Under the pieces are notes generated by a model. It saw only the letters and a list, made by a program, of their open reading frames with translations. It was not told the DNA's origin and ran no database searches. 64,000 nt of DNA, from the NCBI GenBank assembly GCA_001769505.1, contig MEOF01000049.1, positions 62,001-126,000 of the forward strand, given 5' to 3'. The position numbers and the translations under genes were made by a program. This document shows, piece by piece, positions 9,263-33,118 of the stretch. The first letter of the stretch is position 1, and the number at the start of each line of letters is the position of its first letter. Source of the DNA: Bacteroidetes bacterium GWF2_33_38 (GTDB taxonomy: Bacteria > Bacteroidota > Bacteroidia > Bacteroidales > GWF2-33-38).

Positions 9263-11770
9263 TTAGAACTTAATTCCAATTACCAGCATATCGTCGATTT
9301 GCTTATTTTTCCCTTTCCAACTCATAATTGTTGACTCTAATATTTCTTTTTGAATGTGGCAATTCTCACTTTTTGATGCATCAAACAAAATATTTTTAAA
9401 TCGACTACTGTTTAGCTTAGAGTTATTCTCGCCTCCGAACTGATCCATACACCCATCTGAAAACATATACAATTCCATATTTGGGATAATATCTATTTCG
9501 CGGTCGATAAAATCTTTTTCATATCTCTCATCACTGCGAATAAGAGTTCCTCCTACCGACAATAGATTTGGTTCGTGTGTTTCAATATCACCATCTCTTA
9601 CAATATATATTGGGAGCATTGCTCCAGCGTAAGTAATCTTTTTTGCTTTCAAATTTATATTACAAATCGAAATGTCCATTCCGTCTTGTGCCACACTATC
9701 TTTTTCTTGCTGTAGCGTTTTTAATACCCCAAGGTGCAATTTATTAATAATAGCAGATGGCGACGTAGTTTTAAAGTGATTAACCGCCTCATTAAGCAAC
9801 ATTGAGCCAATCATCGACATAAGAGCTCCGGGCACTCCATGCCCTGTGCAATCGGCAACAGCTATAATTATTTCATCGTTAACTTGAGAAAACCAATAAA
9901 AATCTCCACTTACAATATCTTTCGGTAGATAAAAAACAAATGAGTTCTTAAATATAAATTCTAATTCATTCTCTTTAGGAAGTATCGCATCTTGAATTTT
10001 TTTAGCATAATTTATACTATCGGTGATATTCTTATTTTTAAGTTTAATCTCATTTTCAGCGTTTTTAATGGCTGTAATATCAGTATCAACGGCTATAATT
10101 TTTCTAAGATTTCCTACAGAATCAAAAATTGGGGTTAGAGTTGTTTGAATCCATAGTTCTGTCCCATATTTTGTGCCAGTAGGGCTCTCGTAACTAACTG
10201 ATTTTTTATTCAATAAGCATTCGTCTAAAATTTCTTTAATGTTTGGATTACTACTTATTCTTAAAATGTTTTTCCCTTTAATAGTTGTAAATTCATCGTG
10301 CGAATAGCCGTAAATATTTGAGAACCCAGCGTTTAACCACTCGATATCTCCATTTTTATCAATAATTACAACTGCGTTACTTGTTTCTTTTGCAACAATT
10401 GATAGTTTTTCAAGTTCAAGATTAGCAAGTTCTAATTTCACCGATTGTTCGAGTATTTGGTGTGTTTGTGTTGATAGCTGTTTGTTTATTTTCTTGTTTT
10501 GATAAAAACTTCTGAGTATTAATAAGATAAAAAATACAATCACAACAAATCCTGAAATCATAATATTCCGAATATAAATTCCTTGTTTAACTTTCGATTC
10601 CGTGATTTCATTTTCAATTTTCAACAATTCATTTTCTTTCTCTTTTTGTTCAGTTTCGAATCGTATTCGAAGTTCGGCATAACTTTCCGAATTCATTTGA
10701 GATGAAATAGAATCTTTATAATTAGTAAACAATTTATAGTATTTTAAAGCCTCGTCATTGTTGTTGCTAGCTTCATAAATCTCCGATAAATTTTGATAGA
10801 TATTTTTAATATGTTCGAGTGCACTTATTTCTTTTGCTATTTTTAATGCTTGCATAAAATAATCAACCGCATTTTTGAAATCTTGTTCTTTTGCATAAGC
10901 TGTTCCAATATAGTAAAGAGCTTGAGCGATGGCATTTTTATCGTCAAGAGCAAGATTAATTTCATAGGCTTTAAAATAGTATTCGCGAGTTTTTTCAAAA
11001 TCGTTCAAATCTTGATATACATTTCCAATATTCCCATAGGCTTGGGCAATACCTCTTTTATCGGCAAGATGCTCTGCCATTTCTAAGGATTTTGTAAAAT
11101 AATCTAGAGCCCTATTAAAATTTTTCTTTTCTCTATGTACCTCTCCAATATTGTTGTAAGAACCCATTATTGAAGAGCTATCTCCAAGTTCTAATCTAAT
11201 GTTTAGTGATTTTTTGAAAAACTCTAAGGTCTTTTCAAAATTATTGTTGTAGTAATAAATAATTCCGATGTTGTTATACACTCTAGCCATTCCGATTTTA
11301 TTATTCAGTCGCTCTTCAATTTTTAACGACTTTAAATAAAATTCTAGTGCATTTGCATAATTGCCTTGAAAATTATACGACGCACCAATACTGTTATATA
11401 TATTTGATTTTACTTCTTCTTTGCCGTGTTCTTCAATATATTTTAAAGCTTTATGAAAATATTCGAGTGCTGTTTTATGAATTCCTTTGAAATAATAATA
11501 CAAGCCAATGTTATTGTTTGCAAAAGCAACTCCACTTTCAAAATTTAGTTTCTCTGCTAATTCGAGCGACTTTTTAAGATAATCTATGGCTAATTCAGGA
11601 TTGTTGTTTAAATATTCATTTCCTAAATCATTAAGGATATTAACTCTTGTTGTATCGTCTTTAGCAATTTTCAACTCAACAATAAGGCTATCAATGGTGT
11701 TTTGTTTCTGAGCAATACTGAGCATTGTCAAAAATAGAAATGAAAAAAAGAATATGGTAAAAAACCTCAT
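9263..11770 (-). CDS. TPR-PAS-SpoIIE (PP2C-type) signalling phosphatase
   Basis: Membrane signalling protein of 835 aa. It has a signal peptide (1-20), about eight tetratricopeptide repeats (25-370) predicted in the periplasm, a transmembrane helix near 398-420, a coiled coil, a PAS domain (about 455-575, GDIEWLNAGFSNIYGYS) and a C-terminal SpoIIE/PP2C serine phosphatase (about 600-835). The PP2C metal-site motifs are intact: SGDFYWF, ADCTGHGVPGALMSM, DGMDISI, FSDGCMDQFGG and IDDMLVIGI. It likely dephosphorylates a regulatory partner such as an anti-anti-sigma factor, but none is encoded nearby. It runs convergently into the ligase-like gene with an 8-bp gap. The TPR front end resembles that of the cyclase at 24616. 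Confidence 0.88.
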   Translation of the reverse strand: MRFFTIFFFSFLFLTMLSIAQKQNTIDSLIVELKIAKDDTTRVNILNDLGNEYLNNNPELAIDYLKKSLELAEKLNFESGVAFANNNIGLYYYFKGIHKTALEYFHKALKYIEEHGKEEVKSNIYNSIGASYNFQGNYANALEFYLKSLKIEERLNNKIGMARVYNNIGIIYYYNNNFEKTLEFFKKSLNIRLELGDSSSIMGSYNNIGEVHREKKNFNRALDYFTKSLEMAEHLADKRGIAQAYGNIGNVYQDLNDFEKTREYYFKAYEINLALDDKNAIAQALYYIGTAYAKEQDFKNAVDYFMQALKIAKEISALEHIKNIYQNLSEIYEASNNNDEALKYYKLFTNYKDSISSQMNSESYAELRIRFETEQKEKENELLKIENEITESKVKQGIYIRNIMISGFVVIVFFILLILRSFYQNKKINKQLSTQTHQILEQSVKLELANLELEKLSIVAKETSNAVVIIDKNGDIEWLNAGFSNIYGYSHDEFTTIKGKNILRISSNPNIKEILDECLLNKKSVSYESPTGTKYGTELWIQTTLTPIFDSVGNLRKIIAVDTDITAIKNAENEIKLKNKNITDSINYAKKIQDAILPKENELEFIFKNSFVFYLPKDIVSGDFYWFSQVNDEIIIAVADCTGHGVPGALMSMIGSMLLNEAVNHFKTTSPSAIINKLHLGVLKTLQQEKDSVAQDGMDISICNINLKAKKITYAGAMLPIYIVRDGDIETHEPNLLSVGGTLIRSDERYEKDFIDREIDIIPNMELYMFSDGCMDQFGGENNSKLNSSRFKNILFDASKSENCHIQKEILESTIMSWKGKNKQIDDMLVIGIKF

Positions 11771-15325: not shown

Positions 15326-15653
15326 AAGTTTGTAAAGTTATGAAGTAACGAAGTTATGGAGTAATGTAGTAACGAAGTTATGGAGTTATGAAAAAAATCT
15401 AACTTCTAACTTCCTTCTTTTGTTTTTCCAAAATTAGCACATTCCCAAATTATCACATTTCTCCTTTCCTCAATTATCACATTATTTCTTTTGCCTTTTC
15501 TTCCATTAGCATATTGGCACATTGCCAAATTGTTACATTTCCCCCACATTTATCTACTTAAAAACATAATTCATCAATTACTCTTGCAATTTTTTTCGCA
15601 TGCTACTTTTTTTTTTTAGCTTGCTGGGTAAAACAAATTTCAAAATCACCCAT
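15326..15653. repeat. Gene-free spacer filled with degenerate short-period repeats
   Basis: Immediately after the OsmC stop, about 15330-15412 carries GAAGTTATGGAGTAATG-like units (GTTATGAAGTAACG repeated with variation). After a pyrimidine-rich linker (CTTCCTTCTTTTG), 15431-15540 carries ATTAGCACATT/AATTATCACATT-like units. The same two classes, in the same order and joined by a similar linker, recur at 32984-33118. The remainder (15541-15653) is AT-rich and leads to the adhesin gene; no clear promoter was recognised. Confidence 0.7.
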
Positions 15654-22439: not shown

Positions 22440-24614
22440 ATGAAAAAACCGAAAACTCCATCGTATATATTTTTCAGAGTTCTTATTTCAATTTCTCTGC
22501 TCTATGGGCTTTTGATGGCTCCGATAGCCTTGTTTTTATTTTTAAGTAATGCCCCTGAATTTGCAAAACTTTATCAAGAAAATGAAACAAGTATAGCCGA
22601 TTCTTTATCTATAAAAAACCAATCAAATTTTGAAATTCAGCTCAATGGAGAAGGTGCTTCAGTCGGTTGGGACATCGATAGCGACGTTAATAAATCGTTC
22701 AATAAAAAACATGAACACAAAACATTTTTGTTTACTTTTTTAAGCATTATCATTGCATTTGTAATAAATCTTCCGTTTAAAAGATATTTGCGAAAAAAAC
22801 GAAAAAACAAACCCATATCCGAACGACTCAACCAATATTGTAAACGATTTTTACAATATATGCCTCTGATAAACACGGCAATACTTGTTGTTGTTTTTAT
22901 TGTATATCACATTGCAGAATATTTTAGCATTACAAATCCAGAATCATATTCCTGCGAATTAGAGCATAGTTTAAGTAAGGCATACTTTTTTATCTCAACC
23001 ATCACATCTGTCCTCGTTGTTTTGTTTACTTATTTTTGGCTTAAACATCGATTACATTTTAAATACGTTCATCATTTTTTCGACGAAAAAACATTGCAAA
23101 AAAATGTATTTTCGTACCGGTCAGGAAGTATTCTTTCTCGTATTTTAAGCTTGAGCGGCATGACAACTTTCTTCCCCATTGCAGTTATTTCAACCTACAT
23201 AGTATTAAGTATTACAACTCTTGCCGATGTGAATATATCTAGTGTTAGTGATGATCAAACAAAAGTTCTATTGGGTAGTTTTTACAATTTGGTTACTAGC
23301 GAAAATATTGAGGTTAATAAAAACATTCAGTGGTTTCCATATATTCCCAGCTTGAATACAATCATTATGCTGATGGGAATTTCGATGAATATTATTGTTA
23401 CGCTGATTTACATTCTCTTCTTTGTCAGGTGGACAACCAGTTCGATAAAAATCCCAATAACCGATTTATTGAATAAAATGAAAACGGTTAGTTCTGGTAA
23501 ATGGGGCGAAACAACCATTGTAAGAACAAACGATGAGTTTGGTGTTTTATCAGAAGGATTTAACGAAATGTCGCAACAACTCAAAAGCTACTTCGACGAA
23601 CTTACCGATTTGAACAAAAATCTGGAACAAAAAGTCGTTGACCGAACAGCTAAAATTGAACAACAAAAAGAAGAAATTATTTCGCAACGTGATGAAATTG
23701 AAGCTCAACGCGACGAAATTGAAGCTCAACGAGATTCTGTAACCAAACAGCGAGACGAGATTATAACACAGAAAAAAGAAATTACCGATAGCATCGAATA
23801 TGCTCGACTTATTCAATCGGCTTTGTTTCCTCCTGAGCAAATTTTAATCAACATGTTCCCTGAAAGCTTTATTCTTTTCAAACCAAAAGACATAGTAAGC
23901 GGAGACTTTTATTGGTTTCACAAAAAAGAAAACCAACTAATCATCATGGCTGGAGACTGTACCGGACATGGTGTACCCGGAGCATTTATGAGTATGCTGG
24001 GGATTTCTCTGCTAAACGAAATCGTTCATAGCAGTCAAGATTTTGAAGCAACTGAAATCCTAAATCAATTGCGAAAACAAATTGTAAATTCATTTCATCA
24101 AAAAGCCGATTCGGAAGAAACAAAAGATGGAATGGACGTAGCTCTACTTATAATCGACACAGAAATCAAAAAAGAATCGGAACTCGAATATTACGATTGT
24201 CAATTCGCTGGTGCAAATAACCCGCTCTATATAGTTAAAAGTGAAAAGTTAAAAGTTAAAAGTGAAGAAAATACTAAACTTGATGAACTTTCAACTTTTA
24301 ACTTTCAACTTGACGAAGTCAAAGGAAATAAAATGCCAATTGCTATTCACGAAAAAATGGATTCGTTTACAACACATAAATTAAAGCTTTATAAGAACGA
24401 CACTGTTTATTTATTTTCAGATGGCTACGCTGACCAATTTGGAGGAAATAATGGTAAAAAATTCAAATATCAAGCACTCAAAAAAATGTTGCTCGAAAAT
24501 AATCATTTGCCTATGCAAGAACAAAAAAACATACTTTTAAACACTTTCGAAAATTGGAGAGGCGAGCTCGAACAAGTCGATGATGTTTTAGTTTTAGGGA
24601 TAAATATTACATAA
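22440..24614 (+). CDS. Membrane HAMP-SpoIIE (PP2C-type) phosphatase
   Basis: Signalling phosphatase of 724 aa with about six transmembrane helices in residues 13-328, a HAMP linker (about 325-385), a coiled coil built of near-identical QRDEIEAQ units (about 395-450) and a SpoIIE/PP2C domain. Active-site motifs are intact (SGDFYWF, AGDCTGHGVPGAFMSMLG, DGMDVALL, FSDGYADQFGG, VDDVLVLGI). Between YIVK and NKMPIAI it carries a Lys/Glu/Ser-rich stretch absent from the paralog at 9263; that stretch is encoded by a palindromic repeat (24232-24311). It sits between the adhesin (27 bp) and the cyclase (1 bp) and is probably co-transcribed with both. The dephosphorylation target is unknown. Confidence 0.88.
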   Translation: MKKPKTPSYIFFRVLISISLLYGLLMAPIALFLFLSNAPEFAKLYQENETSIADSLSIKNQSNFEIQLNGEGASVGWDIDSDVNKSFNKKHEHKTFLFTFLSIIIAFVINLPFKRYLRKKRKNKPISERLNQYCKRFLQYMPLINTAILVVVFIVYHIAEYFSITNPESYSCELEHSLSKAYFFISTITSVLVVLFTYFWLKHRLHFKYVHHFFDEKTLQKNVFSYRSGSILSRILSLSGMTTFFPIAVISTYIVLSITTLADVNISSVSDDQTKVLLGSFYNLVTSENIEVNKNIQWFPYIPSLNTIIMLMGISMNIIVTLIYILFFVRWTTSSIKIPITDLLNKMKTVSSGKWGETTIVRTNDEFGVLSEGFNEMSQQLKSYFDELTDLNKNLEQKVVDRTAKIEQQKEEIISQRDEIEAQRDEIEAQRDSVTKQRDEIITQKKEITDSIEYARLIQSALFPPEQILINMFPESFILFKPKDIVSGDFYWFHKKENQLIIMAGDCTGHGVPGAFMSMLGISLLNEIVHSSQDFEATEILNQLRKQIVNSFHQKADSEETKDGMDVALLIIDTEIKKESELEYYDCQFAGANNPLYIVKSEKLKVKSEENTKLDELSTFNFQLDEVKGNKMPIAIHEKMDSFTTHKLKLYKNDTVYLFSDGYADQFGGNNGKKFKYQALKKMLLENNHLPMQEQKNILLNTFENWRGELEQVDDVLVLGINIT
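24232..24311 (+). repeat. In-frame palindromic AAAAGTTAAAAGTG repeat inside the SpoIIE gene
   Basis: The left arm (24232-24266) is made of AGTTAAAAGTGAAAAGTTAA-like units. The right arm (24286-24311, ACTTTCAACTTTTAACTTTC) is its near-perfect reverse complement, with about 20 nt between them. It encodes IVKSEKLKVKSEENTK and the following residues, where the paralogous phosphatase domain at 9263 has a shorter linker. The reading frame is kept. Confidence 0.75.
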
Positions 24615-31711: not shown

Positions 31712-31852
31712 TTTTTTGAGTTACAAGTTATAAGTAATGAGTTATGAGTTATGAGTAATGAGTTAAAAGTAATCATAAAACAGTAATCGGTTTTTAAAAC
31801 GATAAAACAATCAACGAGTTCTTTCAACTTTACGAACTTTACGAACTGTCCA
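31712..31852. repeat. GAGTTATGAGTAAT-type repeats between arsF-like gene and arsG
   Basis: 31718-31770 holds tandem variants of GAGTTATGAGTAAT. 31822-31846 holds AACTTTACG twice in tandem. Nothing coding was seen. The units resemble those after OsmC at 15330-15412. Confidence 0.65.
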
Positions 31853-32983: not shown

Positions 32984-33118
32984 TTTATAAAGTTCGTCAA
33001 GTCCATAAAGTTTGTAAAGTTGAATGTTAGTTCGTAATTAGTAACTTGTAATTAGTAATTAGTGCCTTCTTCCTTTTCATAAATTAGCACATTCGCATAT
33101 TAACAAATTAGCACATTT
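32984..33118. repeat. Composite degenerate repeat between arsR and the thioredoxin gene
   Basis: 32984-33060 holds AAAGTTTGTAAAGTTGAATG and GTAATTAGTAACTTGTAATT-like units. A CCTTCTTCCTTTT linker follows, then 33081-33118 with AAATTAGCACATTCGCATAT-like units that run into the arsR stop codon. The order and linker match 15330-15540. Confidence 0.7.

Follow-up and report, generated by a model that had tools for sequence, protein, structure and literature searches.

The window analysed here, a 64,000-nt stretch of the Bacteroidetes bacterium GWF2_33_38 genome (an uncultured member of the Bacteroidota; 3.93 Mb in 70 contigs), contains a gene for a 724-aa membrane protein that ends in a SpoIIE (PP2C-type) phosphatase domain. 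The domain matches PF07228 in Pfam with an E-value of 8.6e-17, carries the metal-binding Asp motifs and is modelled with a PP2C fold, and the GD, D.TGHG, DGMD and SDG residues are among the invariant or nearly invariant columns of SpoIIE domains; the Pfam match to HAMP is weak. Just upstream of the domain, a 21-nt tandem repeat (window 23685–23735) encodes QRDEIEA units of the coiled coil. With split matches counted once, there are approximately 39 SpoIIE domains in the genome, and about ten tandem SpoIIE-domain genes are clustered at C32:33000–58500, the majority with loops of the two types, A and B, described below.

Table 1 Features of the window, with positions counted from its first nucleotide.
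Feature	Position	Strand	Source or measure
Gene for 724-aa membrane protein: HAMP-like region, coiled coil and C-terminal SpoIIE/PP2C phosphatase domain	22440..24614	+	ORF, translation, Pfam
SpoIIE (PP2C-type) domain, residues 497–722	23928..24605	+	Pfam, AlphaFold2, Foldseek
Type A loop cassette of 30 codons, with LYIVKS and FQLDEV as flanking strands	24234..24323	+	
Left heptamer array (AAAAGTT/AAAAGTG), module H; period 7, 4.4 copies	24233..24263	+	TRF
Right heptamer array (AACTTTC/AACTTTT), reverse complement of left; 3.7 copies	24286..24311	+	TRF
Inverted repeat, left arm, 25 nt	24239..24263	+	22/25 pairing (88% complementary)
Inverted repeat, right arm, 25 nt	24287..24311	+	22/25 pairing with left arm
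Second SpoIIE-domain gene, for comparison; short loop at the site matching the insert	9263..11770	-	
Intergenic 9-mer array AACTTTACG, repeat type forming part of type B loops	31826..31847	.	
Intergenic 9-mer array TAAAGTTCG..., type B-related repeat type, opposite strand	32988..33021	.	

Within the SpoIIE domain lies a 90-nt in-frame loop that reads VKSEKLKVKSEENTKLDELSTFNFQLDEVK and encodes KSEKLKVKSEENTKLDELSTFNFQLDEVK, flanked by YIV and GNKMPIAI, with the frame open throughout the ORF. The two arms of its inverted repeat are separated by a 23-nt spacer and pair at 22 of 25 positions, against a maximum of 18 over 60 dinucleotide shuffles of the region. The motif AAAAGTTAAAAGT, allowing at most one mismatch, has seven matches in the window, against an expectation of 1.0, and five of the seven fall inside the insert. 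A preliminary description of this DNA had reported a palindromic repeat at 24232–24311, in frame within a SpoIIE phosphatase gene, and the arrays, the pairing of the arms and the open frame bear this out. The site was correctly placed, but the unit shared with other genes is slightly longer, running from approximately 24234 to 24323, and a repeat is present that is better described as heptamers (AAAAGTT/AAAAGTG) than by the unit originally given. The PP2C motifs are present, as had been stated for an insertion that keeps the frame, and the linker at the equivalent site in the paralogous domain (ORF 9263–11770) is indeed shorter, reading YIVRDGDIETHEPN. Of the two features that define a MITE, terminal inverted repeats and a target-site duplication, the comparison covered the inverted repeat, which is present in the insert; an empty orthologous site of close identity, from which a duplication could be defined, was not found.

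The AlphaFold2 model of the window domain has a mean pLDDT of 91.2, and its nearest solved folds in Foldseek are SiaA-PP2C (6k4e), RssB and SpoIIE. The insert occupies model residues 147–166, between strands 141–146 and 167–172, at a pLDDT of approximately 54–73. In the model of a domain from a second genome, GWA2_32_17 (L220 protein), the insert reaches 48–52, while most of each modelled domain outside the insert exceeds 85. The models put the insert at the predicted tip of a beta-hairpin, of low confidence and outside the confident PP2C core, and at the protein level it would be a flexible excursion that is mostly tolerated. A palindrome that extends the hairpin by encoding a pair of amphipathic strands was also considered and is unsupported, the pLDDT of both inserts being low.

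Searching the genome for other copies, as the preliminary description had proposed, recovered the unit in many paralogs, so the insertion is not peculiar to one gene. An 86-nt query taken from the window's loop returned ten near-full-length copies of the type A unit at 90–100% identity, all at the matching loop of SpoIIE genes; no full-length type A copy was found outside SpoIIE ORFs in this genome, where the remaining matches are fragments or weak. A second unit, type B (...SLSSYKVDEK..NSDF.NFTNFQLYELK), occurs in eight SpoIIE loops. The coding copies found of both units all lie within SpoIIE genes, a tally that rests on pattern and BLAST matches, with absence from other genes judged on the matches inspected. 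A purely intergenic mobile repeat that happened to land in one gene is rejected, as the full units found are in SpoIIE genes only.

The modules from which the loops are built are, in contrast, also found in intergenic DNA. Heptamer arrays occur at 18 distinct places in the genome, 11 of them SpoIIE loops, and all five that were read of the other seven are intergenic. Three type B loops also hold the element GTCATTCCGAACGAA..TGAGGAATCT, which recurs less exactly at nine further places that lie in short ORFs or in none, as would fit intergenic DNA, and 9-mers and a GTCATTCCGAAC element from related loops likewise occur between genes. The window itself has intergenic short-period arrays at 15335, 27991, 31717, 31826 and 32988; together with the heptamers elsewhere in the genome, these agree with the earlier suggestion that the insert is the same kind of short-period repeat that fills intergenic spacers. 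Across the order, heptamer fragments were present in 58 of 198 genomes and the full unit in this genome only. A protein search found short loops in the best full-length homologs from two genomes of the same family. The opposite pattern, a loop conserved in distant homologs with repeats nowhere else, had been named in the preliminary description as grounds for rejecting it, and was not observed.

The type A cassette and the domain around it have different histories. Across nine type A domains, DNA identity is 93% in the loop versus 63% and 64% in the flanks, and the same codon is used at conserved degenerate residues at a frequency of 0.88 in the loop versus 0.51 and 0.55 in the flanks. Type A loops are therefore near-identical inside the tract and diverged outside, the pattern of a gene-conversion cassette. 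In the first five codons either side of the loop, same-codon use is 0.54, i.e. background, and wide conversion tracts are ruled out, as the flanks adjoining the loop are no more alike than sequence elsewhere. On a tree of 35 SpoIIE domains from which the loop had been cut out, loop types are scattered, with 8 changes for type A (shuffled mean 8.1) and 7 for type B (7.3), and sister pairs of differing loop type are well supported, L041 (A) with L044 (B), for instance, reaching 97/98. The AU test rejects a single clade for A (p 6e-55) and for B (p 1e-4). In addition, one loop (L053) is a hybrid whose left part is type A and right part type B, and another (L033) is shorter by exactly 21 nt, or three heptamers. 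The codon excess confined to the loop, the scatter on the tree, the AU tests and these two loops together indicate that the loop has been exchanged apart from its domain. A and B together as one clade are only weakly rejected (p 0.045), so a single ancient entry followed by swaps may also account for both types.

At the window's hairpin, other palindromic repeats are present in three further Bacteroidota genomes. For example, HGW-Bacteroidetes-21 (G198) has a loop of GCCAAT-type 8-mers in six SpoIIE genes and at two places outside long ORFs, while G001, from the same family as the window's genome, has the palindrome ACGAACCAGAGGTTCGTG in arrays that look intergenic as well as in nine SpoIIE genes (30 of its 36 places were read, one of these being ambiguous). 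In GWA2_32_17 (G199), the perfect palindrome AACAAGGGGGCATGCCCCCTTGTT is found both at another hairpin, flanked by SGDFYW and VADCTGHG, and at the window's hairpin, where it is nested inside AAACCTAACAGGTTTT...; 24 of its 27 pattern matches in that genome are in SpoIIE ORFs, two (at one place) are in an ORF combining a methylase with a Y1 domain, and one is outside a long ORF. Long loops from other Bacteroidota were palindromic at P < 0.05 in 7 of 20 cases; for control windows taken from those genes the figure was 3 of 79. The window's genome has a methylase-Y1 ORF of its own (C15:10482–13772; L337, L344), an approximately 1270-aa frame resembling a type IIG restriction-methylation enzyme with a Y1_Tnp (HUH) domain embedded in frame, in which the palindrome AACAAGGGGATTAATCCC(C/A)TTGT occurs in five in-frame copies in two different reading frames; its relatives are found in G199 (C74 and C219) and G002 (C286).

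The stretch in the window is best explained as a cassette of palindromic repeats, inserted in frame into a variable loop on the surface of a SpoIIE/PP2C domain, at the tip of a beta-hairpin. We consider it likely that the loops represent coding palindromic repeats, comparable to Rickettsia palindromic elements (RPEs), that are concentrated in one gene family and have spread between paralogs by recombination. A tolerant SpoIIE loop would have been entered by short repeats, either palindromic or of short period, and the loops would then have been copied between paralogs, by gene conversion or template switching, in short recombination tracts limited to the cassette. This exchange is read from the comparison of paralogs in one assembled genome, and a targeted insertion mechanism could be another source of the sharp edges and identical placement. 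As the heptamer arrays are degenerate, the repeats may have passed from intergenic DNA into genes or from genes into intergenic DNA. Further, the cassettes might constitute an active diversification system, in which recombination shuffles palindromic modules among the approximately 40 SpoIIE phosphatases and so changes a surface loop that would set partner choice; we regard this as doubtful, although, if true, active shuffling would keep parallel SpoIIE pathways apart.

Several other origins could be proposed for the loops. Ordinary inheritance of a loop already present in an ancestral SpoIIE gene, maintained through gene duplication and protein-level selection, would suit the many copies in the single cluster on C32 as well as L052 and L091_29, near neighbours that are alike in both flank and loop type, but is improbable given that codons are the same in the loop and close to random in the flanks, that loop type is scattered over the domain tree with single clades rejected, and that an A/B hybrid exists. 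Tandem heptamers within coding DNA, and a loop shorter by exactly three of them, are also what might be seen under phase variation, whereby slippage of 7 nt would shift the frame and turn the phosphatase off. This fits poorly and is very unlikely, as the arrays are short and imperfect, none of the genome's matched SpoIIE frames contains internal stops, and other species have 24-nt palindromes (a multiple of three) at the window's site. Least probable of all, to the point of being nearly discounted, is that the palindrome is kept as an mRNA or DNA hairpin controlling expression. The window copy does fold with an energy of -21.1 kcal/mol (z -3.4), but stem pairs number 21, 21, 15, 14, 13, 11, 11, 11 and 7 in nine type A copies, and the functional mRNA hairpin raised in the preliminary description is unsupported because pairing decays in this way between copies.

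Mobilisation by a Y1/HUH transposase (TnpA_REP), with REP-like palindromes inserted directly into hairpin tips, is unlikely as a general account and fits G199 better than the window's genome. In G199, AACAAGGGGGCATGCCCCCTTGTT occupies two non-homologous SpoIIE hairpins, at one of them nested in another palindrome, so that homologous conversion alone is insufficient there; moreover, this palindrome is clean and REP-like within coding DNA, and the genome has 13 Y1_Tnp matches. REP insertions inside the genes for TnpA_REP (RAYT) have been reported from Bacteroidetes and Cyanobacteria, in subclass 2.4 (PMC6006769), and the methylase-Y1 ORF of the window's genome holds in-frame copies of AACAAGGGGATTAATCCCCTTGT. 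The SpoIIE repeats resemble REPs in being short palindromes present in many copies in Bacteroidetes. However, REPs are by definition mostly extragenic, whereas the full units of the window's genome are found in coding DNA only, and its cassette is not a simple REP but a heptamer array, 88% complementary and without a clear REP core. Nor does this genome have a clear free-standing Y1 transposase of the kind cognate to REPs (one embedded domain at 52 bits and three marginal matches at 22–23 bits), and random insertion would not place 24 of the 27 palindrome matches of G199 in SpoIIE genes.

In-frame palindromic elements are best known from Rickettsia, and the Bacteroidota would provide a second setting, where the elements concentrate in the hairpin loops of a single large family of signalling proteins and apparently move between SpoIIE paralogs while the rest of the domain stays in place. 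RPEs (Ogata 2000, 2002) are characterised (PMC10969869, PMC3767692) as in-frame palindromic repeats of approximately 100–150 bp at solvent-exposed places in many unrelated protein-coding genes; they fall into several families that are unrelated to one another, and some of these also have copies between genes. They are the closest known kind of element by description; the Rickettsiales are a distant lineage. As with RPEs, the SpoIIE insert is an in-frame palindrome that leaves the host protein intact, judging by the open frames, the motifs and the modelled PP2C core. In contrast, the SpoIIE units are mostly shorter, their type A and B coding copies were all found at homologous hairpins of one paralogous family, the loops are shared among paralogs against the domain phylogeny, and the hosts are Bacteroidota. 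A search of the open-licence literature found no report of elements like these in the SpoIIE genes of Bacteroidota.

Other coding or short-period repeats are less similar. Palindromic amphipathic repeat coding elements (PARCELs) are likewise palindromic coding repeats shuffled within genomes, but make up tandem domains of 25 residues in membrane proteins and in ORFs whose function is unknown (PMC2996958), whereas the SpoIIE case is a single insert in an enzyme loop. The coding palindromes of Nematomorpha mitochondria are also inverted repeats in translated sequence that have been gained and lost, but are perfect, long and mitochondrial and encode conserved residues, with an origin by template switching proposed (PMC6649704). 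Similarly, the TAACTGA heptamers of Beggiatoaceae, Cyanobacteria and some Bacteroidetes are seven-base repeats, mostly intergenic and patchy in Bacteroidetes, but differ in sequence, are direct rather than palindromic and are unreported in a phosphatase family (PMC4679880).

The SpoIIE loops offer a concrete, repeated case of intergenic-type repeat DNA turned into protein sequence, and one with many parallel copies available for study. For annotation, phosphatase loops such as STFNFQL or KSEKLKVK should be regarded as repeat-derived rather than as signs of conserved function. In a SpoIIE domain of G001 (C154; L107:2508–3725), the third loop is partly masked as N and the second, which precedes GANNPL, exceeds 100 residues and consists of Ser/Gln-rich repeats. 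In the window's genome, the second loop before AQFAGANN, at another SpoIIE hairpin tip, contains repeats of the intergenic type at two loci, L010 and L007 (AACCTTCAAGGTTTCAGAAACCTTGAAGG and CAATTCACAATTAGCAATT).
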